From contig NZ_CP075566.1 of NCBI RefSeq assembly GCF_018502625.1, forward strand, positions 6,017,001 through 6,081,000: a stretch of 64,000 nucleotides of DNA, read 5' to 3'. The position numbers were made by a program, and so were the translations under genes. Below, in pieces: positions 2,385 to 23,936 of the stretch. This stretch comes from Pseudomonas hormoni. GTDB taxonomy: Bacteria > Pseudomonadota > Gammaproteobacteria > Pseudomonadales > Pseudomonadaceae. A model generated the notes under the pieces. It worked only from the letters and a program-made list of their open reading frames with translations. It ran no database searches and had not been told where the DNA came from. Positions within the stretch are counted from its first letter, which is position 1; the number at the start of each line of letters is the position of its first letter.

Positions 2385-2390
2385 GGTATT

Positions 2391-2435
2391 TGGTGCCCAG
2401 AGACGGAATCGAACCGCCGACACGGGGATTTTCAA
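2391..2435 (-). repeat. attL: 45-bp tRNA-Phe 3' fragment
   Basis: Identical over 45 bases to 23861-23905. It covers the tRNA-Phe 3' CCA end, acceptor 3' strand, T arm, variable region and the anticodon stem up to the anticodon loop. After base 2435 the two copies diverge at once (AACCT here, TCCCC in the complete gene). This is the footprint of site-specific integration at a tRNA gene. Confidence 0.93.
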
Positions 2436-2762
2436 AACCTGTGAACCTCCTTTCGCATTCGAGCAACGGCTGGTAATCCTTGCCCTATCTCAAATTCGCC
2501 AGCGTCGTGCCCGGCCAGAAACGGGCCAGATGGCTTCAAAACCTTCCGGACGTACCGGAGGAGCACCGGAGCGTGGTGTGCGATTGAGGCTGGTTTTTGA
2601 CGCACCGCGCGTACCGCGTGACATTTGTGTATCAGAATTTCAGTCGTCTAATTTATATCAACCTCTACGAACCCCTCCTGATGAGGTGAGCGAGAGTGAG
2701 TAAACCAGAGCATCCCGTTGTGGGTGTGGAGGCGGATACGACAATCTTCCCATAGTAGCTGC
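2436..2762. other. Island left-end spacer without a convincing gene
   Basis: Between attL and the first island gene I see no supported reading frame. It holds the first copy of the boundary motif (2607-2622) and a short GC-rich inverted repeat near 2547-2570 (CCGG...CCGG). Otherwise nothing recognised. Confidence 0.5.
2607..2622 (+). repeat. Island boundary motif, copy 1
   Basis: GCGCGTACCGCGTGAC. Identical over 16 bases to copy 5 at 23534 and sharing the core ACCGCGTGAC with copies 2, 3 and 4. It lies just inside the left end and left of the nuclease/ATPase/TOPRIM operon. Probably a recombination or former attachment site; the function is inferred. Confidence 0.6.
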
Positions 2763-3785
2763 TCAGTTTATTACTCGTCTCGTGCTCACGCCCCATTGGG
2801 CGACGATTTTTGTGACGCGAAGCCACTCACTGTCTAATCGCTCGTCAATCATCTCTGAAATTGATCTTGAACTTTTTGAGGCAAGATATGTTAAGCAACT
2901 AGATAATAAATTCTCACCAAATCCTGGGCAAATCACTTCATTTTCATTGTGTTTACTGAATTGACTCCAATATTCGCCACGATAAGACTCATCAGCTTTC
3001 AACGCCTCTCCTACGGAAAGTCCATTTTTATGGTCTGGATATTTTCTGAGTTCGTGATATTTAGAGTTGCTGAAGATTAGGGAAGATTTACATTCCGCTC
3101 CTGCTACTTCCCTCACCAGCGAAAAAGGTAAGATGTTTTCGATTTCATGGCACTCTAAAACTTCAAAATATCTTTTTTCTGAGTAACCAGCTTGCGTTTT
3201 TTTAAATTTTTTTGCGGTGCTGCCTAATTTAGCTTTGGGGTGGTCTTTGTCGCTATCGACGATGCATGCAAAAAAACGAGTGGACTTCAGATTCAATTTT
3301 TCAAACATTTTATGAGTAGTGTCGCCTCCTCCTGAAGCTGTTTCAAGTTTTATGTCGCACGCACCTAGTTTTAGTTTAGCGATGTACGCTTTGGCACCAT
3401 GTATAAATACTTCGCCATCATCGTCGTTTTCTGTTAATAAAATTGGCAGTTGGAGTGATTCGCTATCCCGAAAGTGGCCATAGCCAATGTGCCATGTTCC
3501 GGAAACATAATTTAATGTAAATTTGTCGTCGAAATGGACATTTACATATAGCTCAAGTTTTCTCAGCAAAGATTTGGTTTCATTCACTTGGCTCTGTAAG
3601 TCGTCAAGAACTCTTTTCGAATAGTAGCTCAGCTCTTTTATCGCTAAGTAGCTAATAACGAGTTCGTAGGGCATCCATAAGAAGTGCTTTCCTTCGCCGT
3701 GTGCCTTTAATATGTTGTCAATGGCTGCAAGTTTTATCAGCTTGTCCAAGGAAAGGTCTGGGAGTGTTTCGATAACTAGTATCAT
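2763..3785 (-). CDS. TOPRIM-like putative nuclease/effector, last gene of a candidate defence operon
   Basis: A soluble protein of 340 residues. A TOPRIM-like signature is visible: LPILLTEN with a glutamate near residue 119 followed by DDD, a GGGD turn near 152-155, ACIVDSDKD with the acidic pair near 177-179, and CHEIENIL near 212-219. Spacing and the HEIEN element resemble TOPRIM/DUF4435-type nucleases that partner AAA ATPases in OLD-like and PARIS-like systems. I prefer the ATG at 3785, whose ATGA overlaps the stop of the upstream ATPase gene (translational coupling); a TTG at 3815 is possible. Sequence is AT-rich and foreign-looking. Assignment to PARIS proper is not proven: lengths and gene order differ, and the operon starts with an extra nuclease. 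Confidence 0.65.
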   Translation of the reverse strand: MILVIETLPDLSLDKLIKLAAIDNILKAHGEGKHFLWMPYELVISYLAIKELSYYSKRVLDDLQSQVNETKSLLRKLELYVNVHFDDKFTLNYVSGTWHIGYGHFRDSESLQLPILLTENDDDGEVFIHGAKAYIAKLKLGACDIKLETASGGGDTTHKMFEKLNLKSTRFFACIVDSDKDHPKAKLGSTAKKFKKTQAGYSEKRYFEVLECHEIENILPFSLVREVAGAECKSSLIFSNSKYHELRKYPDHKNGLSVGEALKADESYRGEYWSQFSKHNENEVICPGFGENLLSSCLTYLASKSSRSISEMIDERLDSEWLRVTKIVAQWGVSTRRVIN

Positions 3786-5398
3786 GATTGCACCGACAGA
3801 AAGCCGATAGGCCAATCAACCAAGTATCCATCCTCGTCAAATCCAGCTAGGTTAGTTTCTGTCATGCCGCTTTCATTCTTGTCAAATAAAACGATATTGA
3901 CTTTTGTTTCCGAAATTTTGTCGTCTCTAATGCTTTGGCCTATTGCATCAATCAAATGTTTGCTGTGAGTTTCGATGATAAATAAAAATTTACTATGTTT
4001 TGTTGCTAGTGAGGCGACTTTTGCAATTGCGGTTCCAAATTTATATTGAAGTGCGGGGTGCAAATGAAGTTCGGGTTGCTCAAGTACTAATACTCTTGGC
4101 CATATATTTCGTTTGTGGATGTTTGATGGTTTTCTTTTGCCTTTTTTTGGTACTAATTCCAGCCATATAGATACGATTACAGGCAGTATTTGAGAGTATC
4201 CAAACCCCATGTCGCTAACGTTGTGAAACTCCTTGTCAGTACTCTCCTTTATTAATAGTTCGTAGTGAAGGCCTTGTTTAGATAAACGTAACTCGAAGCC
4301 GAATTGTTCCGCAATCCAAGCTCCAAGGCTTTTCTGGTTTTCTTCTGACATTGAGTTGATTACCATCGGTAGATTCGCTCCCGTATGGTCTACTTCATCA
4401 ATCTCTAGATCTTGATATCGATAAAATCTTTCCCCTGCGGCTCGCAAAGGTCCGGAGTAACGAACTCCACTAAAATAGTCTTTGAATAGAGTGTCGGTCG
4501 CTCTTAGAAATTTCGTCGTGTTAATCACAGTCAGATAGAGAAAAGCGGTTGCGAGGATTTCCTTCTCGTGTTTTTCCAGGTTTTTTATGAATACCTTGTC
4601 CTGTTGGAATAGTATTGATAGGTTCTCATAAAGCGTATCGCTGTGGCTCAATGGTAATTTGAGAAGTTCCAGTCTTATATTGGTCGCTTTTTTCGAGTGA
4701 TGGTGGAATTTTTTCAGGTAAGTTGCAAGCCTGTTAAGTCCTTCATGCTTGAGGCGGTCGAAAGCTAAGAAAAGCTTTTCTTCGTTTACTGTCATTGTAC
4801 GCCAGCCTACAACTCTTAAAGGAATAAGTGCTCCATTAACGCTGACCTTCTTTATGGAAAAGCTTTCACTGATTCCTGTCTCGTTACAGTTGATTGTGAA
4901 GCTGCTAACATTAGTTTCGGAATATATCATTCGTACTGATACGTTCCTTGTTTTAAGGTCTAGCGTATTTTCTACTAGTTCCGCGGCGTCTTTTTTTAAT
5001 GTGAGTGAAATTTCTGCATTAAAATCCGTGCTGGATTTTATTTTAGGTCGAAAAGCAAGTGGTGGAGTAGTCTCTATTTCAACTAAGAATTCATCTGCGT
5101 TTTCCCAGTCATCACCGGCAAAGTCTAGTGAGACATCGAAATCAAAAGATATACTGTTCGCATTTTGGCGTAGGGCTGTATGGAAATCACCAAAATCTGC
5201 AAATCGGCCATACCATAGTATTGGCGAGCGTGTATTCGCTTCAATCGACTGACGTAGAAGAGGAAATGTTCGAAGAAAAGTGCTTTTGCCGCAGCTGTTT
5301 CGTCCCACGAGAATGTTTACTGTTTTTAGTGGGATAAGGTTGCGTTCACTGCCAAAACTTCGTAGGTCGCGAACGCCGAAGGAATTAATGCGTGACAT
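3782..5398 (-). CDS. AAA ATPase, OLD-like/DUF3696 type
   Basis: 538 residues. Walker A is GRNSCGKST at residues 32-40, directly after an N-terminal FGVRDLRSFG strand typical of RecF/SMC-like AAA ATPases. Walker B with the ABC-type catalytic region is VLVLEQPELHLHP near 436-448, and ETHSKHL near 474-480 matches the switch region. A GFGYSQILPV stretch ahead of Walker B is the signature-like element. There is no fused nuclease domain; the partner is the TOPRIM-like protein encoded next, overlapping by four bases. Likely a sensor/motor that controls the nuclease, as in OLD, Gabija or PARIS systems (inference). AGGA lies five bases before the ATG at 5398. Confidence 0.85.
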   Translation of the reverse strand: MSRINSFGVRDLRSFGSERNLIPLKTVNILVGRNSCGKSTFLRTFPLLRQSIEANTRSPILWYGRFADFGDFHTALRQNANSISFDFDVSLDFAGDDWENADEFLVEIETTPPLAFRPKIKSSTDFNAEISLTLKKDAAELVENTLDLKTRNVSVRMIYSETNVSSFTINCNETGISESFSIKKVSVNGALIPLRVVGWRTMTVNEEKLFLAFDRLKHEGLNRLATYLKKFHHHSKKATNIRLELLKLPLSHSDTLYENLSILFQQDKVFIKNLEKHEKEILATAFLYLTVINTTKFLRATDTLFKDYFSGVRYSGPLRAAGERFYRYQDLEIDEVDHTGANLPMVINSMSEENQKSLGAWIAEQFGFELRLSKQGLHYELLIKESTDKEFHNVSDMGFGYSQILPVIVSIWLELVPKKGKRKPSNIHKRNIWPRVLVLEQPELHLHPALQYKFGTAIAKVASLATKHSKFLFIIETHSKHLIDAIGQSIRDDKISETKVNIVLFDKNESGMTETNLAGFDEDGYLVDWPIGFLSVQS

Positions 5399-5412
5399 GA
5401 TTTTCCTATATT

Positions 5413-5532
5413 TTATGTGTGGTGGTCTAAAGCTATTCTAGCTTCTTCTAGTAGCATGGAAAATAATTTATAATATACATCATTTGCAATTGCGAGGTGG
5501 TCGTGAATGCGTCCTATCAATTCCACAATCAT
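5413..5532 (-). CDS. Possible 39-residue protein between nuclease and ATPase genes
   Basis: A short open frame from ATG at 5532 to TAA at 5413. It starts four bases after the stop of the PD-(D/E)XK gene and ends 14 bases before the ATPase start, so it fills the only gap in the operon. The peptide has two short predicted helices (MIVELIGRIHDHLAIAND, then KLFSMLLEEARIALDHH) with no signal peptide or membrane span. The ribosome-binding site is weak (TGGAAT). Tight packing is the main support. It may be a small regulatory or structural subunit, or a chance frame in an operon spacer. Confidence 0.4.
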   Translation of the reverse strand: MIVELIGRIHDHLAIANDVYYKLFSMLLEEARIALDHHT

Positions 5533-5536
5533 GTTG

Positions 5537-6535
5537 CTATTCCAGCGAGTAGTAACGGGATTGAAGCTTTGTGGTGATATCTACTAGATGTTCTTTGAAC
5601 TGGGAATATGGGTTCTCATCAAAGAAAAAAATGATCACTTCGCTTTCTCTCACACCTTTATTCGAAAGCTTGCCGGGCTTCAAATTGTAATCTGCACTGA
5701 TATCGACTGCTAACTGGCGCAACGCTTGAAGGCGTCGCTTTTTTTGGGTAACGATTTCGGGCTGGTCCTTAGGGATGGCCGCGTACTGATTTACTCGTAG
5801 ATAGGTTCTCCCGGCGCGAGAATCCACTCTCCAAAATAAGGTTTCGTTTTTGCCTTCGTAGTAACCCTCACGACGACAAATATCCAGCTGAGTCCAAGGT
5901 GTACCGTTCATGTTGACGCCTTTCTTGAATTTCAAAGAAGGGTCACTGTTCTTGAGTTGGTCATAGAGCTCACCGATGAGGTGCCGTTGACCGATGGCGC
6001 TTTGAAATGCGGTTGGGCAGGAGATGGCTAAGCGCTGAAAGACCTGTTCTTCCTTAGAAATCCAGGCGTCTTTCAGGAACGCGCAGTACTGATCGATGAT
6101 TGGGTGGTATGGCGCTAAAAAGCTAACCGCTTGATAGAAATCATGGGCGGATATCAGCTGATAGCCCTGTAGATTCTGCCGTTCCCAGGTATCGACATAG
6201 CCGATTTTAAAGTAGACGTACTTGTCGCAATTCGGGAAGCGTTCCCGGTAGCGATTGAGTTGATCAGAATGAAAGGTCGATGAGGTTTTGTTCTCAAACA
6301 GGATGGCGCGAGGCACGCAATTTACTTCAAAGGTCAGGAGTAAATCGACATTACCGGATTGGAGTTTAGGCTCGGTTTTTACGGGTATCTCGCCTTCTGC
6401 GATGAGCCCTAAAGCGTGGAATACCTGAGAACGATAACCTGCGATATCCGGGTTGACCTCCAGTTCCTTGAAAAACCACGCTAAGAAAGCATCCGTGCTG
6501 AGTTCCTTGGGGGCGTACATGAACAGATTATTCAA
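5537..6535 (-). CDS. PD-(D/E)XK nuclease family protein (PDDEXK_4-like)
   Basis: 332 residues. The N-terminus (APKELSTDAFLAWFF, from residue 8) is the hallmark opening of PDDEXK_4-type proteins. The catalytic core is visible as NVDLLLTF, giving the aspartate, then AILFENKT, giving E-x-K, followed by a QLNRYRERFP helix. The rest of the protein (about 150-332) has no recognised domain and may serve recognition. I kept the TTG start at 6535 because AAGGA lies seven bases upstream; an ATG at 6520 lacks a site. It is the first gene of a leftward operon with the small frame, AAA ATPase and TOPRIM genes. A defence function is inferred. Confidence 0.75.
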   Translation of the reverse strand: MNNLFMYAPKELSTDAFLAWFFKELEVNPDIAGYRSQVFHALGLIAEGEIPVKTEPKLQSGNVDLLLTFEVNCVPRAILFENKTSSTFHSDQLNRYRERFPNCDKYVYFKIGYVDTWERQNLQGYQLISAHDFYQAVSFLAPYHPIIDQYCAFLKDAWISKEEQVFQRLAISCPTAFQSAIGQRHLIGELYDQLKNSDPSLKFKKGVNMNGTPWTQLDICRREGYYEGKNETLFWRVDSRAGRTYLRVNQYAAIPKDQPEIVTQKKRRLQALRQLAVDISADYNLKPGKLSNKGVRESEVIIFFFDENPYSQFKEHLVDITTKLQSRYYSLE

Positions 6536-7136
6536 CGTTTCTTCCTTGAGTGGGTGGGTGGTTTGAGGCTAGGACCGTGACGACCATTATCCGCTGAGCT
6601 TGCCTTTTCGTCGGCTTACTGTCTGCGTTACTCGGGTTTCCGGCTTGACCCTTTTTCGGGCTGCTGATTCATAGCGTACAAGCAAACGAAGCGTCTGGTA
6701 ATCCAGTGCTTTCATGGCGATGCTGCCCGTTCAGAAAGCGCCATGGTTTCGCACCACGCGCACCGCGTGACCTAAACACTGAAAATTCCAACCTCTCTGG
6801 ATCGAGCATGGAAAATGCCACCTTGCTACCGTTCGTCGGGTCGAAATTTGCATATGGAACGATATTTGCTCATCCGTTTTGGCAAGGATGTCCTTCTTAA
6901 AACGGTTTTTGAGTAGAGCCGATCTTGTGGAAAAATCGATAAAAGCCAATCACCCCAAAAATAAACCTCTAGGCAAAGTACATAGATCTCTTTAGATTCG
7001 TTTTAGTCAGTTCGGCCAGCACCTACTTTAACAGCTTGCCGCACTACGAATACTAAAGAGCTTCATTAGCGATTCACTTAATAGATGGACACCAAAATGA
7101 TTATTTACAGCACAAAACATTGTGTGGAGAATTCGC
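6536..7136. other. Intergenic region between divergent island blocks
   Basis: About 600 bases separating the leftward nuclease operon from the rightward integrase. It contains boundary motif copy 2 (6756-6771) and must hold promoters for both directions, but I see no clear -35/-10 pair. Short frames on both strands have no ribosome-binding site and no recognisable content. Confidence 0.5.
6756..6771 (+). repeat. Island boundary motif, copy 2
   Basis: ACGCGCACCGCGTGAC; 14 of 16 bases match copies 1 and 5. It lies between block 1 and the integrase-led block 2. Confidence 0.55.
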
Positions 7137-8246
7137 ATGCCTGTTACAACGCCAGCAAAACAGCACGAAAGAAGAGATCCTGTTGTAAAAAACTTGATTG
7201 TCACTAACTATTCAAGCACCAATAGTGTTACTTACAGCATCCGTGGGACGACTAATGGGCGTCGACGTATGGTGTTAGGGACGTCCAAAGAGCTATCTTT
7301 GACTCAGGCCCGTATCAAGGCATTGGAAGCTCAAGGAGCTGGTTACAACAATGCTTCTTTGACCCTTTCCCAGGTCTTCGAGCAGTACGAACATTCCGGC
7401 GAGTACAGCGGCAAGCGCAGCATGGGACGTGAGCGTAAACGCTACGATTCGGTGGTTGAACCACTTCTGGGTAGAAAAGCAATCAAAGCCATCAGCCTAG
7501 CGGATATTCAAGCCGTTTTGGCATCGCTTCGCCCATCACTAAGTGATGCGACTAAGAACCGTTATTTGGCCATGCTGCGCTCCATCTTTCGGTTTGCGGT
7601 GGACCAGGACTATTGCGAGAAAGATCCCACCCGCAGCATAAAACTGAAGCGCGAGGTGCCGGTTAAGCTGTATGAGGTCAACAATGAGCTCATTGATCGC
7701 CTCGGCGTAGCGGTTAACTGGCTGGAAGACCGTTTTCCTCGGACCTCCTGCCTCGTGGAGTTTCTTTTACTAACGGGGATGCGCTTGGGGGAGGCACTAC
7801 CCCTGACGTGGTCGGATGTCGATTTCACGCTAAAGCAAATCACCTTGAGGACGACCAAAAGTGGTCGTGTCAGGCACGTGCCCCTCAGCGAAGAATGCGT
7901 TGAAGTCCTTGATAGGCTTGCCGACGTTACCGCTGACTTTCCTAAAGATGGCTGGCTGTTTCCTTCGTCATTTGGCTCGTCGCACATGACCCGGCCAGTG
8001 CGCCCTTGGAAAAAAGCGTGTGGGGCGGCAGGACTCCCCTTGTCGTTACGCTTCCATGATTTGCGCCATATCTTTGCCTCGGCCTGCGTCAAGGATGGTA
8101 TCCCGCTGTACACCGTGCAAGGGTTGCTCGGTCACTCCTCGATCAGAATGACGGAGCGTTATTCCGCCTTGGCGTCTTCAGATTTGTTGAAGGCCAGTTG
8201 CCGTGTTTCAAGTGCCCTTGCCCTACGTGCTGGGGGTGCGCAATGA
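7137..8246 (+). CDS. Tyrosine-type site-specific integrase
   Basis: 369 residues. Catalytic residues of the tyrosine recombinase family are all visible: R216 in LLLTGMRLGEA, HDLR at 307-310, H333 in LLGHSS and the nucleophile Y342 in TERYSAL. An N-terminal arm-binding region (1-70) precedes a SAM-like core-binding domain (about 75-170). The start at 7137 has GGAGA six bases upstream; a GTG at 7122 overlaps that site and is less likely. The stop overlaps the start of the DUF927 gene (ATGA), so the two are co-translated. It is the first gene after boundary motif copy 2, making that motif a candidate for its attachment site (inference). Confidence 0.92.
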   Translation: MPVTTPAKQHERRDPVVKNLIVTNYSSTNSVTYSIRGTTNGRRRMVLGTSKELSLTQARIKALEAQGAGYNNASLTLSQVFEQYEHSGEYSGKRSMGRERKRYDSVVEPLLGRKAIKAISLADIQAVLASLRPSLSDATKNRYLAMLRSIFRFAVDQDYCEKDPTRSIKLKREVPVKLYEVNNELIDRLGVAVNWLEDRFPRTSCLVEFLLLTGMRLGEALPLTWSDVDFTLKQITLRTTKSGRVRHVPLSEECVEVLDRLADVTADFPKDGWLFPSSFGSSHMTRPVRPWKKACGAAGLPLSLRFHDLRHIFASACVKDGIPLYTVQGLLGHSSIRMTERYSALASSDLLKASCRVSSALALRAGGAQ

Positions 8247-14621: not shown

Positions 14622-15776
14622 CTAAGTGGTTGCGGTCACGAGATCACTGACCCGATTGGAGGCCACCCGCAGGTTCTCGGACGCGAGGTGGGCATAGCGC
14701 TGGGTGGTTTTGTTACTGGCATGGCCCAGCAGGTGCTGGACTTCATACAGGCTGGCCCCATTGTTGATGGCCAATGAGGCGAAGGTGTGGCGCAAGTCGT
14801 GAATGCGTAGATGAACCAGCCCCGCGACTTTCAACGCTCGCTGAAAGCATTTGCGAGCGTTGTTGAGTGGCTTGCCGGGTTTGGCGCCTGGGAAGAGATA
14901 AGGGCCGCAATTTGTACCGGGCAATTCGTTGATGACGGCCAATGCCGGTTCGCTGAGCATCACAAAGCGTTGGCGCCCGCTCTTGGTGATCGGTAGGTTC
15001 CATAACAGGCGCTCCTGATCAATGTCCTCCCATCGCGCCTTTAATGCTTCTTCGCGCCGTACACCAGTGAGCAGCATCAGCTTGATGGCTTTTGCCGCAA
15101 TCTGGTTTTGCTCGGTGCTGAGAACCGTCCACAACCGCTTGGCCTCATCGATGCTGAGGAAACGCTGGGATTGGTTGTTCTCCGTGTGCATGCGAATGCC
15201 GGTCGCCGGGTTTGTATCGAGGTAACCCCATAAGATGGCGAGGTTGAAGCTACGTTTGAGAAGGGCGAGATGTCGGTTTGCTGTTGCTGGGGCTCTGCGG
15301 CTGATTAATTCGTCGTGGTACCGTTGAATCTCCTGTCGACTGATGGAGGCCAACGGGCGAGCACCAAACATCTCGAAGAGGTGGGTTTTGAACTTTGAAT
15401 CATCACTGTTAGCGCTGCGCTTGCTGGCGTAGGCGTGGGGCAGGTAGTGATCATCGATGAAGCGGCGAAAGGTCATTCCTGATTCGAGGATGGTTTCTTG
15501 TGGGTCAATGCCGTTTGAAAGCTGAGCCCTGTGTTTGAGCGCGAGCAAGCGGGCATCGGCGACGTCCAGCTCTCCATAATTCCCCAGCTTCATGCTTCGC
15601 TGTCGCCCGGCATGTCGGTAGCGCAGATAGAAGAACTTGCGCCCTTGTTTGTTGATCAGCAGTTTAAGGCCTGAAACTTCGGTGTCGGAATACTCACTCT
15701 CCCTGGCTTTGGCATCGGTGGGTTGCGGTGGTAGTGCGTCAATCACACGCTTGGAAAGGCGGATGAGCTTGCTCAT
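14622..15776 (-). CDS. Tyrosine-type integrase with N-terminal arm domain (DUF4102-like)
   Basis: 384 residues. An N-terminal arm-binding domain of the P4-integrase type (about 1-95; GLKLLINKQGRKFFYLRYRH region) is followed by a core-binding domain (100-195) and the catalytic domain. Catalytic residues: R240 in LLTGVRREEAL, HDLR at 326-329, H352 in LLGHAS and the nucleophile Y361 in TQRYAHL. This class usually integrates at tRNA or tmRNA 3' ends, so it is the better candidate for the tRNA-Phe event, but it sits 8-12 kb from both ends. AGGTG lies four bases before the ATG. Confidence 0.92.
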   Translation of the reverse strand: MSKLIRLSKRVIDALPPQPTDAKARESEYSDTEVSGLKLLINKQGRKFFYLRYRHAGRQRSMKLGNYGELDVADARLLALKHRAQLSNGIDPQETILESGMTFRRFIDDHYLPHAYASKRSANSDDSKFKTHLFEMFGARPLASISRQEIQRYHDELISRRAPATANRHLALLKRSFNLAILWGYLDTNPATGIRMHTENNQSQRFLSIDEAKRLWTVLSTEQNQIAAKAIKLMLLTGVRREEALKARWEDIDQERLLWNLPITKSGRQRFVMLSEPALAVINELPGTNCGPYLFPGAKPGKPLNNARKCFQRALKVAGLVHLRIHDLRHTFASLAINNGASLYEVQHLLGHASNKTTQRYAHLASENLRVASNRVSDLVTATT

Positions 15777-17991: not shown

Positions 17992-19047
17992 TCAGGGTTT
18001 GCTTAAAATTTCGAGTCTCACAAGAAGTTCTGGTTCACTTCTGAACCATATGTCTGAACCTCGTGCAATTTCACTGATCCTTTTTTTGAAGGGGGAGGCG
18101 TTTCGGTCTTCAAATGCAGTGATCATTCGGACATGGCTCTCCGGAATTCCTGCATCAGCAGCAATTTTTAGTAGAGACTCTTTGCGCAGCTCAGTAATGG
18201 GGCCGTCGCTGTGCACAACTTCGATAAATATCAGCCGAAGTCCATCTTTGTGACCAGTATCAGCAGCCACAATATCAGGTAGTTCCGCAGACGAGGAAAT
18301 ATGCAAATCAATATCCTCCGCCTCACCAGAAAGCTCCCGGAATGTTTTCCTTTCCGATGTACTTATATGAACAACTACAGGTTCAATCATGATCTGCTTC
18401 AGTAGCTCTTCGCAAACGTCGCGTGTGATTACAGAAGCCTCACCGGGTGGTAAACGTAAAGTAGTGCCGGTGGTCGGCAGCGTGACTGCTATTTGACCTT
18501 CTTTGGCTCCAGTTCTTCTGAGAAGGCGCATTCTTTTGAGAATCATGGGGTCTAGGTTCTGTTCCTGCCAGCGCCCAATGAGTTCGGTCAGACTTGCGTC
18601 ATCAAGTGACGGATCAAAAAGTGCTGCAAAGCTCTCTGCTAAGCAGTAAATCGGCGCAGGAGAGGTCGTTGGTACCCCTTCACGTTTTACGATCAGGCCA
18701 ATGGGTATTGCCCTGTTTCTGATTAAGTCGTCTCGAAGCGGCTCTCGGGTGTTGTCGGCATACCATTGATCTACCGCTTTGTACCCTGGTGTGTGGCAAG
18801 TCGAGATCCACAGGAGCCGTTCCTCATCGGAGTCCTTCTCTGACTGGGGATACCCAAACCGAATCACCGTTGAGGGGCGAAAGTAACGCTCCATGCCTTC
18901 AGTAAAGGCGCCATACAAGCATACAAAAACCATTTTTGCTGCCATGTCGCCGACCAATATTGCGCGGTCTGGAAAGGTCTCAGGGAAAACCAAGGCGAGG
19001 CGATCTTGTACAAATTTGAGGGGGGCAAACGGCGGTAGGCTGGACAT
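17992..19047 (-). CDS. Type II restriction endonuclease, BsuBI/PstI family
   Basis: 351 residues; start at ATG 19047, which has GGAG seven bases upstream (an ATG at 19086 has none). The C-terminal part resembles the BsuBI/PstI endonuclease domain: ELPDIVAADTG, then LIFIEVVHSDGPITELRK, then IPESHVRMITAFEDR, where D and E-x-V are candidate PD-(D/E)XK-like metal ligands. The N-terminal domain binds DNA in this family. BsuBI and PstI (316 and 326 residues) cut CTGCAG, so that target is predicted. The gene follows its methyltransferase on the same strand with a 95-base gap, the usual order for co-expressed R and M. No controller gene is seen. Confidence 0.82.
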   Translation of the reverse strand: MSSLPPFAPLKFVQDRLALVFPETFPDRAILVGDMAAKMVFVCLYGAFTEGMERYFRPSTVIRFGYPQSEKDSDEERLLWISTCHTPGYKAVDQWYADNTREPLRDDLIRNRAIPIGLIVKREGVPTTSPAPIYCLAESFAALFDPSLDDASLTELIGRWQEQNLDPMILKRMRLLRRTGAKEGQIAVTLPTTGTTLRLPPGEASVITRDVCEELLKQIMIEPVVVHISTSERKTFRELSGEAEDIDLHISSSAELPDIVAADTGHKDGLRLIFIEVVHSDGPITELRKESLLKIAADAGIPESHVRMITAFEDRNASPFKKRISEIARGSDIWFRSEPELLVRLEILSKP

Positions 19048-19142
19048 ACGGATTCTCCTCATTGGGGGTGAGATGAATCCTATCAATGCGCTCTCATTGC
19101 TGCAACTAAAATAAATCCACTTCAGTTCTGGAGTTATTTTTT

Positions 19143-20648
19143 CTATACCGCAGCTAGGAGGTGTCTTATCTGTAGCGTCACCGTAACGGCGTGATCTGCC
19201 TCAGCTAGCGTCGGCGTGTCAGGTAGCAGATTTCCGATAGCAATAAGCGATTCAAGTGGTGGTAGACGGAGCTTCCGAAGCTCGGTTGCATTCACTTGCG
19301 TGCTACCGGAAACCGCTCGGAAATGGGCGTCTACTACGGTGCTGTTGAGAAAGGCTGCGAGTCCTATGGTCTCCGAACGAGTGAGCTCTCCTCCGGGGCG
19401 GTAGATGTAATTCAGATGATTTTCTAGGCCAATGAACTCGCCAGGCAAGCTTCCAGCAAGGTACGGAGCTGCTGTCACCCGCCTGATATCCTCTTTGGGG
19501 CTGAAGCGTCGCATGACCACGTAGTTGGTGTTTCTTAGGAGCATCCAAGCGCTAGCCGCATTGGAGAGTATGTGCTCGCGTTTTTTCTGTATTGGCCACC
19601 TTATGCCCGTATGTTTTACGTGCTGCATCCATAGCAACGGAACAGCTCCTCTGGCAAAGGATTCCAAAATGAATTCTTTGGAGCGAAATGGGACTACTGG
19701 ACCAGTCGATACCTTGAGTCCGAGTGTGGCCAAGGTGTCGTGCCACTCCTCAAAATCATTTCCAGCATGATTTGCCCCCGCTGCCACCGGAATAGCGATT
19801 GTCATTTGGTCATCGTTGGCGATCACCTCGGTGGTTGGAATCGCGAAGAGCTCGGCGTCACGTAGGTCCAAGACTCCTTGGCTCGTACTGAAGGCAATTT
19901 CTCCAGCGCGTAACGGTTGAGCCGTAGCCCAAGCTATTACGGCCTCTTGTAGGATGGTGTCCTCGTAGAAGTGCGCTTGGCGGCTCTCAAAAAGATGCAA
20001 GGCATCGATGTGAAGGTAGTGAAGTAGATGCCTTCTCACAGCAGCGAAATAGGAGCCGTTGAGCCAGGATCGCGGGGTAATGAAACACCAGCGCCCTGTT
20101 GGTTTGATTAGGCTGGCGCAAGCTGCTTGGAACAACCCGTAGATATTTGGTTGGCCATAGACCGCGTAGGTATGAGCCTTGGCTCTGGGATCCGCCTTGT
20201 TCAGCTTAAAATAGGGAGGGTTAGCTATGCAGACATCGAACTCCGGCCTAGCGGATTGCGCTAAAGCAGATAGCAGAAAGTCCCCAATTACGATGTGGCA
20301 CGAAAGCGTCACGCCCGAGTCTTTTGCGGCTCGCCGTAGACGGTCAGCCAAGCGCCTCAGATAAGGCTTGAGTCGTGTATCTATCTCGTAAAGTGTCAGC
20401 TCTATACGAGAAGGGCGTTCCTCGCGCCTTAGAAGCTCTTGCACGACGGCGGCAGCGAGTATTCCCGCTCCTGCTGATGGCTCTAGGATGCTAACGACAT
20501 CAGAGAATATCCCGGTAGTTGCCCGCTGCGCCATGAACGTAGCTATAGGAGGGGGGGTCATGAACTGCCCCAGGCTCTTCTGCTCATCTTTGCTAAGAGA
20601 CGAGACAAAGGCTTTTCCATTTTGGTGTGCGAACTGGGTGATTGGCAT
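19143..20648 (-). CDS. Type II DNA adenine methyltransferase, BsuBI/PstI partner
   Basis: 501 residues, the length of M.BsuBI. The N-terminus carries GQFMTPPPIA (motif X, 27-36), the SAM-binding motif LEPSAGAGILA (55-65) and the catalytic NPPY at 143-146, in the gamma-class order of N6-adenine methyltransferases. The remaining 300 residues hold the target-recognition region. It should methylate the adenine of CTGCAG and protect the host from the adjacent endonuclease. The gene starts the RM operon; boundary motif copy 4 lies 127 bases upstream. Confidence 0.88.
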   Translation of the reverse strand: MPITQFAHQNGKAFVSSLSKDEQKSLGQFMTPPPIATFMAQRATTGIFSDVVSILEPSAGAGILAAAVVQELLRREERPSRIELTLYEIDTRLKPYLRRLADRLRRAAKDSGVTLSCHIVIGDFLLSALAQSARPEFDVCIANPPYFKLNKADPRAKAHTYAVYGQPNIYGLFQAACASLIKPTGRWCFITPRSWLNGSYFAAVRRHLLHYLHIDALHLFESRQAHFYEDTILQEAVIAWATAQPLRAGEIAFSTSQGVLDLRDAELFAIPTTEVIANDDQMTIAIPVAAGANHAGNDFEEWHDTLATLGLKVSTGPVVPFRSKEFILESFARGAVPLLWMQHVKHTGIRWPIQKKREHILSNAASAWMLLRNTNYVVMRRFSPKEDIRRVTAAPYLAGSLPGEFIGLENHLNYIYRPGGELTRSETIGLAAFLNSTVVDAHFRAVSGSTQVNATELRKLRLPPLESLIAIGNLLPDTPTLAEADHAVTVTLQIRHLLAAV

Positions 20649-21970: not shown

Positions 21971-22241
21971 CCTTATGTGTCTCCGAATCTAAACTCAAAA
22001 GAGTTTTTACAATTCTACCATCAGAGTATTTGCTGATTTTTATTTTGGATGTCATTACTCCATTCTGGGCGTAGATCACAATGACGTCTTCGTCAGATAT
22101 GAAACGATTGAATATATATCTAAAAAAAACACGAGCGAATTTGTACGTGGCTGGTGCCAGTAATATTAGGCTCAGGTATAAAGCCGCCCATGCGATGTCT
22201 TTTTCAGTCCACATATCAATGTCAAACCTGGCGTCTGTCAC
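21963..22241 (-). CDS. One-span membrane protein, unknown (second gene of candidate membrane operon)
   Basis: 92 residues. One hydrophobic segment near 17-33 (WAALYLSLILLAPATYK) is followed by a basic, aromatic stretch and a C-terminal soluble tail with two beta-like segments (DVIVIYAQNGVMTSKIKI). The GTG start at 22241 lies 20 bases inside the preceding gene; an ATG at 22214 is an alternative. It overlaps the next gene too, so all three genes are translationally tied. The tail could bind the soluble partner or a ligand. Function unknown. Confidence 0.6.
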   Translation of the reverse strand: MTDARFDIDMWTEKDIAWAALYLSLILLAPATYKFARVFFRYIFNRFISDEDVIVIYAQNGVMTSKIKISKYSDGRIVKTLLSLDSETHKDE

Positions 22242-23154
22242 CGCTTGCCCAGTGGCGTGTCACCTCAACAACTACACGATCAATTGTAGATCTCGTGGGC
22301 CTTGAGGTCGTTGTTACTTCTAGATCTATTTCGTATAAGTCATCTTTTTTGAACGCTTGCTGGTTTTGTCTGACTTTGTCCAGGAATGTTTTATCCTTCA
22401 TCGTCACTGGATATTCTTCATGGTCTTTGTTTTTGATTCGCCATCCTTTGCTTGAGTCAAAATTTATCTGGGAAAAGCTAACGTTAATCTTTTCTCGATC
22501 TATCGAAATTTCTTCTAGTGTTCCAGCAGGTAAAGGCTTGTAGTCGTTAATTTCCTCTTCCTGTGCAGTCCAGACTGGTAGTTCATTTTTATCTAAAACT
22601 TTAAAAATGGCATTGGGCTTTCCGATGAGCGGTGCTTGAATGATTTTGTGCAAAGACTCTCGTGCCCGTTTGTTGGCTATTAATTTAGCCACGGTTTTGT
22701 CCATTACAAATGTACCGTCATCAGTTGTTACTTTGGCTTCCTCGCTATCGCCATCAATCGCTATGTTCGTGATTTTTTTGTTTCCGATTTTTTGCACCAT
22801 TTCAACCAGTGCGGCTTTGGCGATTGCCGCTCCTTGTGCTGCAAATCCTAGTGTCGCTAAAACCTTTAAAGCTACGCCTGGGTCTGCCAGTAATGCGAAC
22901 ACTACCTCGACAGAGCCTTCCTTGACAGGAGTAGTTACCTTTAGCTGGACCTTTTCGATACTTGAGCCAATTGCCTTGGCTGTTTCCTCAATCAAGTTAT
23001 TCATGCCAAGGATAGCCTCTCCCAACTCCTTAGCATTTATTTCGTGATGGGATAGTGATTTGTCTTTTGCGTCATAAGAAATGACAAACTTATACTCGGC
23101 AAGTTTTTTTTCTTCATTTTTCTCGGTCAGATTGCCATTTTGCTCGTTTGTCAT
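22222..23154 (-). CDS. Unknown soluble protein, first gene of candidate membrane operon
   Basis: 310 residues; start ATG 23154 has GGAG five bases upstream. The N-terminal 55 residues suggest an alpha/beta domain (FVISYDAKD, then INAKELGEAILGMNNLIEET). A small-residue, weakly hydrophobic segment near 95-120 (ALKVLATLGFAAQGAAIAKA) could be membrane-associated or a buried helix. The C-terminal part (from about 200) looks like a beta-rich domain ending VVVEVTRHW. I do not recognise a family. The tight overlap with two small membrane proteins suggests a sensor that signals to a membrane effector (inference). Confidence 0.6.
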   Translation of the reverse strand: MTNEQNGNLTEKNEEKKLAEYKFVISYDAKDKSLSHHEINAKELGEAILGMNNLIEETAKAIGSSIEKVQLKVTTPVKEGSVEVVFALLADPGVALKVLATLGFAAQGAAIAKAALVEMVQKIGNKKITNIAIDGDSEEAKVTTDDGTFVMDKTVAKLIANKRARESLHKIIQAPLIGKPNAIFKVLDKNELPVWTAQEEEINDYKPLPAGTLEEISIDREKINVSFSQINFDSSKGWRIKNKDHEEYPVTMKDKTFLDKVRQNQQAFKKDDLYEIDLEVTTTSRPTRSTIDRVVVEVTRHWASGDRRQV

Positions 23155-23850: not shown

Positions 23851-23860
23851 CTCGGTATTT

Positions 23861-23905
23861 TGGTGCCCAGAGACGGAATCGAACCGCCGACACGGGGATT
23901 TTCAA
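23861..23905 (-). repeat. attR: 45-bp direct repeat inside tRNA-Phe
   Basis: The same 45 bases as attL at 2391-2435, from the CCA end to the anticodon loop. Confidence 0.93.
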
Positions 23906-23936
23906 TCCCCTGCTCTACCGACTGAGCTATCTGGGC
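23861..23936 (-). tRNA. tRNA-Phe (anticodon GAA)
   Basis: 76 bases on the minus strand starting GCCCAGATAGCTCAG and ending with an encoded CCA. The anticodon stem and loop read GGGGATTGAAAATCCCC, so the anticodon is GAA. The D arm, T arm (GGTTCGATTCC) and acceptor stem GCCCAGA/TCTGGGC pair correctly. The 3' 45 bases are supplied by the island end, keeping the gene functional. Confidence 0.97.

Follow-up and report, generated by a model that had tools for sequence, protein, structure and literature searches.

We analysed a window of 64,000 nt from the Pseudomonas hormoni contig NZ_CP075566.1 (positions are counted from the window start), in which four adjacent frames run leftward at the distal end of a 21.5-kb integrative island in tRNA-Phe. 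Two of these frames form a pair of an OLD-type ATPase and a TOPRIM-like protein, which is the main subject here, and a sequence-only reading of this DNA had joined them with the other two in a single candidate defence operon. The frames, together with the stretch with which the pair appears to have been acquired, are as follows (aa, amino acids; GC, guanine plus cytosine).

5537–6535, minus strand: PD-(D/E)XK (PDDEXK_4-like) nuclease gene, 332 aa, TTG start; an island-end gene, judged to lie outside the pair.
5413–5532, minus strand: 39-aa frame, probably not a component.
3782–5398, minus strand: OLD-type ABC/AAA_15 ATPase, 538 aa; putative sensor/regulator.
2763–3785, minus strand: TOPRIM-like putative nuclease, 340 aa; the presumed effector of the pair.
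2628–5534 (approximate limits), strand unassigned: probable acquired cassette with the pair, missing from the related islands L006 and L007 and marked by a GC step.

The frames are present as first described, with spacings of 4, 14 and −4 bases between successive members; the ATPase and TOPRIM genes share an ATGA in a 4-base overlap, and the likeliest start of the TOPRIM-like gene is the ATG at 3785, which overlaps the stop codon of the ATPase gene. GC content is 0.40–0.41 in the pair, 0.36 in the small frame, 0.47 in the nuclease gene and 0.60 in core DNA. In a promoter and terminator scan promoter-like sites were no more frequent than in shuffled sequence, and megablast of the region against E. 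coli genomes gave no match. Matches to known families are strong for the ATPase and weak for the nuclease and the TOPRIM protein. As for the 39-aa frame, it is marginal, an equally long frame being found in 69 of 5000 Markov shuffles (1.4%) of the 138-nt gap; a search upstream of the related ATPases examined gave no relative, and the best match covered 9 residues at an E-value of 0.048. Its inclusion as a component is unsupported, and it is probably not one.

In the ATPase, Walker A residues G32, G37, K38 and S39, the signature from D396 to Q403, Walker B E440/E443 and H478 are invariant in 6 of 6 proteins. Its profile matches are Pfam AAA_15 (7e-18) and, in PADLOC, NsnB (1.7e-42, 144 bits), the candidate family PDC-M55A (3.9e-29) and AriA (3.7e-20); the gene name Nsn presumably stands for Menshen (NsnABC). 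When the ATPase alignment was compared with solved structures, the OLD protein 6p74 and the retron Eco8 nuclease were matched. At E ≤ 1e-30 the ATPase is present in 6 of 398 Pseudomonas genomes including its own (5 of 397 others), and a TOPRIM-like gene lies downstream in all five of the others. Sixteen phage records were matched, one over the full length; P2-EC5 ORF555 and a Klebsiella phage ATPase are only distant, and beside neither was there a TOPRIM profile match.

The constancy of the pair was followed by searching genome contigs with the ATPase alignment; the 80 best-scoring loci were taken from the longer list of matches, and the partner was sought with a TOPRIM profile seeded from six Pseudomonas proteins. 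A same-strand TOPRIM gene lies downstream of the ATPase in 79 of these 80 loci, which bears out the earlier suggestion that an ATPase of the kind used by OLD, Gabija and PARIS is paired here with a TOPRIM-like protein. This count takes in broken copies (a gap of up to 380 bases in L071 and a shared frame in L091), and two of the 80, L019 and L068, are the loci of Pseudomonas genomes G816 and G613; in the one exception, L079, the contig stops 248 bases past the ATPase. The spacing between the two genes, measured in 80 pairs with that of viral contig L099 among them, has a median of 0 and stays within 60 bases in 70. Moreover, distances in the ATPase and TOPRIM trees are correlated (Spearman 0.593 over 77 pairs, with 0 of 999 permutations as high), a correlation that is partly due to shared host descent and to one duplicated record, L016 and L019 being one record that is counted twice in the trees. 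Cut or broken frames were omitted from these trees, namely ATPases L057, L071, L089 and L091 and TOPRIM rows L036, L071, L075, L083, L091 and L095. Judged by record names, the best 80 loci extend over Proteobacteria, Campylobacteraceae, Clostridia, streptococci, Bacteroidales, cyanobacteria, Chloroflexi and myxobacteria, and the pair is rare per genome. In the filamentous Pseudomonas phage 62-2 (L100, 5001–7637) the pair adjoins a repressor and is annotated as a rad50-like ATPase and a putative OLD family nuclease, and one viral contig also carries it. The pair is a conserved module carried on mobile elements. As a separate observation, in Streptococcus mitis (L091, 6001–9223) one frame holds the ATPase together with the beginning of the TOPRIM protein, and another holds the remainder, which may be either a fusion or a broken copy.

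A TOPRIM fold has a glutamate after strand 1 and a D-x-D after strand 3, in beta-alpha-beta order. E119, G154, D177, D179 and E216 of the TOPRIM-like protein are shared by all 72 aligned proteins, and in its AlphaFold2 model, whose mean predicted local distance difference test score (pLDDT) is 96.6 and whose predicted template modelling score is 0.93, E119 follows strand 115–118, D177-x-D179 ends strand 172–177 and E216 follows strand 205–210, which is the TOPRIM order. About 110 residues precede the TOPRIM core. When aligned by hhalign to seven AriB proteins, the catalytic columns fall into register (E 5e-5, probability 67%). A fold check of the TOPRIM call against the PDB agreed in its ranking but was statistically weak: ranks 1–4 are OLD TOPRIM regions at E 0.011–0.026 with low TM-scores, and further down are retron Eco2 (rank 6) and GajA (ranks 15 and 33). 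Searched against the sequences of solved structures, the TOPRIM alignment gave chance matches only, no match to the protein was found in the plasmids searched, and a single-sequence TOPRIM search of the genome contigs, in which the ATPase alignment search worked, gave no match. Because the acidic residues are invariant, the model is confident and has TOPRIM topology, and the core aligns to AriB, we regard the TOPRIM assignment as well supported, although fold statistics do not prove it.

The nuclease has E11, D64, E81-x-K83 and Q92 invariant in 7 of 7 aligned proteins. The E-x-K nuclease core, Walker A/B motifs and TOPRIM signature described by the sequence-only reading are all present. A model from 7 sequences (pLDDT 84.8) puts D64 and E81/K83 at the adjacent strands 65–71 and 74–83, with a helix at 90–99. 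The window protein matches Pfam PDDEXK_4 at 0.002, below the cut-off that its remote relatives L109 and L110 pass, and with its D...E-x-K active-site pattern on modelled core strands the nuclease looks genuine. Searches recovered it from 3 of 298 Pseudomonas genomes and, with an alignment, from 5 of 369 genomes of the class, its own genome being counted each time; six other genomes carry it in total, two of them (L109 and L110) in remote form, 20–22% identical. No match was found in the plasmids, viral contigs or phages searched. In none of the six other nuclease genomes is there an ATPase or TOPRIM gene near the nuclease in the 7–20 kb read around each, and a profile from three close sequences found the nuclease at E ≤ 1 in none of the best 80 ATPase-anchored loci, of which 52 exceed 13 kb in length and 71 extend over more than 1.1 kb on the upstream side of the ATPase; the shortest offer limited upstream DNA, so the nuclease could be missed there.

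Comparison with two related tRNA-Phe islands, in both of which the nuclease sits at the island end and the pair is missing, locates the junction. In G695 (L006), a related island has a recombinase 86% identical and a nuclease 90% identical to those of the window, and the pair is replaced by other genes; in G015 (L007), the tRNA-Phe region is without that recombinase and the nuclease is 73% identical. Flanking homology with both ends at about 2625–2627 and at 5535–5550, and on the nuclease side it ends 2 bases past the stop codon in L007 and 13 bases before the frame end in L006. In L007, DNA equivalent to the island end at 2391–2627 begins only about 15 bp after the nuclease, and therefore 2628–5534 looks like an inserted 2.9-kb cassette of 40% GC. 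Insertion or replacement of a cassette at about these limits would be the simplest history suggested by the alignments. The nuclease is thus most likely a solitary island-end gene and not part of the ATPase–TOPRIM pair. The sequence-only reading had placed it in the same system and had named its occurrence in separate operons elsewhere as the check on that idea; the neighbourhoods (0 of 80 best loci in the DNA read, 0 of 6 other nuclease genomes) and the end of homology at or close to its stop codon went against the combination. In G695 (L006, 5755–9175), the cassette site beside the nuclease is filled by a serine recombinase and two RepB/ParB-like genes.

The island itself is delimited by the following features.

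2389–2435, plus strand: distal copy of the attachment-site repeat (3′ part of tRNA-Phe), a 47-bp perfect direct repeat with 23859–23905.
7122–8246, plus strand: tyrosine recombinase of the island (Pfam Phage_integrase, 4e-33), with an 86% identical copy in L006 and none in L007.
23859–23905, plus strand: attachment-site repeat inside tRNA-Phe, 47-bp perfect repeat.
23861–23936: tRNA-Phe, with the repeat just listed.

A second tyrosine recombinase, about 30% identical to the first and with a similar match in L006, lies inside the island at 14622–15776. The same island holds a BsuBI/PstI-type restriction endonuclease with an adjacent Eco57I-like DNA methyltransferase (17992–20648) and, near the tRNA-Phe end at 22222–23154, a homologue of the PADLOC candidate PDC-S42 (5.6e-31) without a Pfam match at E ≤ 0.001; the earlier description of the island as defence-rich agrees with this type II restriction-modification pair and candidate homologue on a mobile element. 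At the same hotspot in G015 (tRNA-Phe region, L007 11734–13344), one frame fuses an AAA_21/ABC ATPase with a DUF4435 region and is OLD/PARIS-like.

We consider that the locus is a junction of two modules, a solitary PD-(D/E)XK gene and a two-gene OLD-type ATPase/TOPRIM cassette of which the pair is probably antiviral, and we put the probability of this reading at roughly 0.7, because pairing and gene order are conserved, the catalytic motifs are intact, the modelled topology is that of a TOPRIM and the pair is carried by mobile elements. By analogy with related systems the pair probably functions in phage defence. In PARIS, AriA is described as holding AriB inactive, sensing phage proteins and freeing an AriB dimer that cuts tRNA (PMC12409363), and in Gabija the ATPase domain is described as gating the TOPRIM nuclease by the level of ATP (PMC12796447). 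On this analogy, the 538-aa ATPase would be a sensor and gate that keeps the TOPRIM protein inactive, would respond to a phage product or to a nucleotide change, and would then license the 340-aa TOPRIM protein, a putative two-metal nuclease, for metal-dependent cleavage of nucleic acid. The target would probably be host or phage DNA or tRNA, and cleavage would stop the infection, most likely at the cost of the cell (abortive).

Several results weigh against this reading. None of the PDB fold hits reaches E ≤ 0.001 and from rank 5 onward unrelated proteins appear among them, the viral fold library gave nothing at E ≤ 0.001, and Pfam TOPRIM models match 0 of 72 family members at E ≤ 0.01. With the TOPRIM protein as a single query, a relative turned up in just 1 of 143 related genomes and in 0 of 368 others of the class. 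The pair and the nuclease may still be co-transcribed in this genome, given their 4-base spacing and the shuffle-like frequency of promoter-like sites. The neighbours of the pair are mixed, with scattered defence families and some core genes among 123 script-chosen proteins. Among the PADLOC families listed for these neighbours at E ≤ 1e-15, mad3 is the most frequent with 6 proteins; restriction methyltransferases and candidate families appear twice each, and core genes include tRNA synthetases. In other genomes, four of ten long genes taken from upstream of the pair have a PADLOC match at E ≤ 1e-8. The neighbour scan had no control set, and the association with defence is therefore only suggestive.

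The core genes among these neighbours, together with the non-defence role described for the OLD-family protein Cran1 (PMC12796447), would fit a pair that is not antiviral but is a DNA-repair, plasmid-exclusion or housekeeping ATPase–nuclease. We judge this to be unlikely, although it survives best of the alternatives, since the pair is sporadic, being in 5 of 397 other Pseudomonas genomes at E ≤ 1e-30, and is carried by an island and a filamentous phage.

A slightly smaller chance is given to the pair being a Menshen/PDC-M55 system whose DUF262 partner has been lost or is supplied from elsewhere in the genome. PDC-M55, a PADLOC candidate, comprises the ATPase M55A, the TOPRIM-like M55B and the DUF262/GmrSD_N protein M55C, and two Pseudomonas loci, L129 and L130, have all three genes. 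NsnB, PDC-M55A and PDC-M55B are the closest profiles to the pair. The ATPases are homologous, the order of ATPase then TOPRIM is found in both loci read, and the TOPRIM proteins are homologous over 259 columns (hhalign probability 96.9%); the ATPase of the pair is larger, with 538 aa compared with 387 and 446. The window TOPRIM protein matches PDC-M55B weakly (1.2e-7, 30 bits), whereas L130 and L129 score 94 and 103 bits; PDC-M55B matches 49 of 72 family members at E ≤ 0.001, and in a genome-wide PDC-M55B search at that threshold the window's own genome was not called. In the ATPase tree the pair's 82 sequences stand apart from PDC-M55A with a support of only 0.47, whereas in the TOPRIM tree both PDC-M55B proteins lie inside the pair's group. 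Menshen, described as joining a DUF262 gene to a predicted OLD nuclease (PMC10952713), has in NsnB the best match of the ATPase, but the pair has no detected NsnA-like gene and no NsnC profile match. DUF262, PDC-M55C and NsnA had no match among the window proteins scanned, the neighbours of the pair being the attachment-site end and the PDDEXK gene. A two-sequence DUF262 profile, of low sensitivity because it was tried only on its own two members (both found), detected no such gene beside the pair in 91 loci or in the island of the window, and unlinked partners were not searched for. Moreover, the bare pair is widely distributed, which suggests self-sufficiency.

It is improbable that the pair is a true PARIS system (AriA/AriB, OLD class 4). 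As in PARIS, the ATPase and TOPRIM protein are encoded by separate adjacent genes, the ATPase matches AriA and the TOPRIM catalytic columns align to AriB at the values given above. However, NsnB and PDC-M55A outscore AriA, and the TOPRIM protein is of a different family with about 110 residues before its core; the window protein has no match to the AriB profile at E ≤ 1 and only 3 of 72 members match it at E ≤ 0.001, and on this profile we rejected membership. With filters off, the pair's TOPRIM profile gave E-values of 5e-10 and 1e-4 for the two PDC-M55B proteins but no better than 0.15 to 1.7 for seven AriB proteins. With default filters it found one of the two PDC-M55B proteins and none of the seven AriB, and as it missed a PDC-M55B protein too, its silence on AriB alone says little.

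The least probable alternative, that all four frames are one defence operon with the PD-(D/E)XK nuclease as a second effector run by the ATPase, as in dyads like WonAB, has in its favour tight co-directional packing and the PD-(D/E)XK partners with which OLD-type ATPases are described as working elsewhere (PMC12137116, PMC12839542), but the nuclease was found in 0 of 80 pair loci in the DNA read, the pair lies nearby in 0 of 6 other nuclease genomes, homology breaks off at the nuclease stop codon or no more than 13 bases from it with a step in GC, and the ATPase already has its own nuclease partner, and we therefore rejected the four-gene operon on gene neighbourhoods.

Returning to the two-module junction with a probably antiviral pair, these comparisons suggest that the pair should be described as related to PDC-M55/Menshen, with no DUF262 gene detected beside it, and more remotely related to PARIS. 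OLD classes 1–5 have been described (PMC12796447, PMC10568477), and TOPRIM-linked OLD-ABC pairs are already in print as a class (PMC12839542, which credits earlier work). The pair shares OLD-type ATPase motifs and OLD-like TOPRIM fold matches with OLD class 1 and Gabija GajA but consists of two polypeptides, and a GajB-like (UvrD-like) helicase had no match among 17 window proteins scanned. WonAB of the V. cholerae WASA-1 prophage is likewise described as a prophage-borne two-gene OLD-ABC ATPase and nuclease (PMC12137116), but its nuclease is a PD-(D/E)XK enzyme whereas the putative one of the pair is TOPRIM-like. In the literature searched, with few subscription papers covered and papers available in part, PDC-M55 was not named and no paper was recognised as describing this ATPase–TOPRIM pair; the accessible text of a Pf-phage paper gave no match for OLD nucleases or phage 62-2. 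We tentatively propose, at somewhat less than even odds, that the two genes suffice on their own as a widespread, as yet unnamed defence system of split OLD type that is neither PARIS nor Gabija nor Menshen, and in which the TOPRIM protein has an N-terminal region of its own and may cut a substrate new for OLD nucleases.

Close packing of genes at an island junction can mimic an operon. The pair offers a clean family for testing, with a TOPRIM protein that Pfam models did not recognise in the 72 members scanned. If the pair protects alone, the ATPase–TOPRIM core common to PDC-M55 and Menshen would work without a DUF262 partner.

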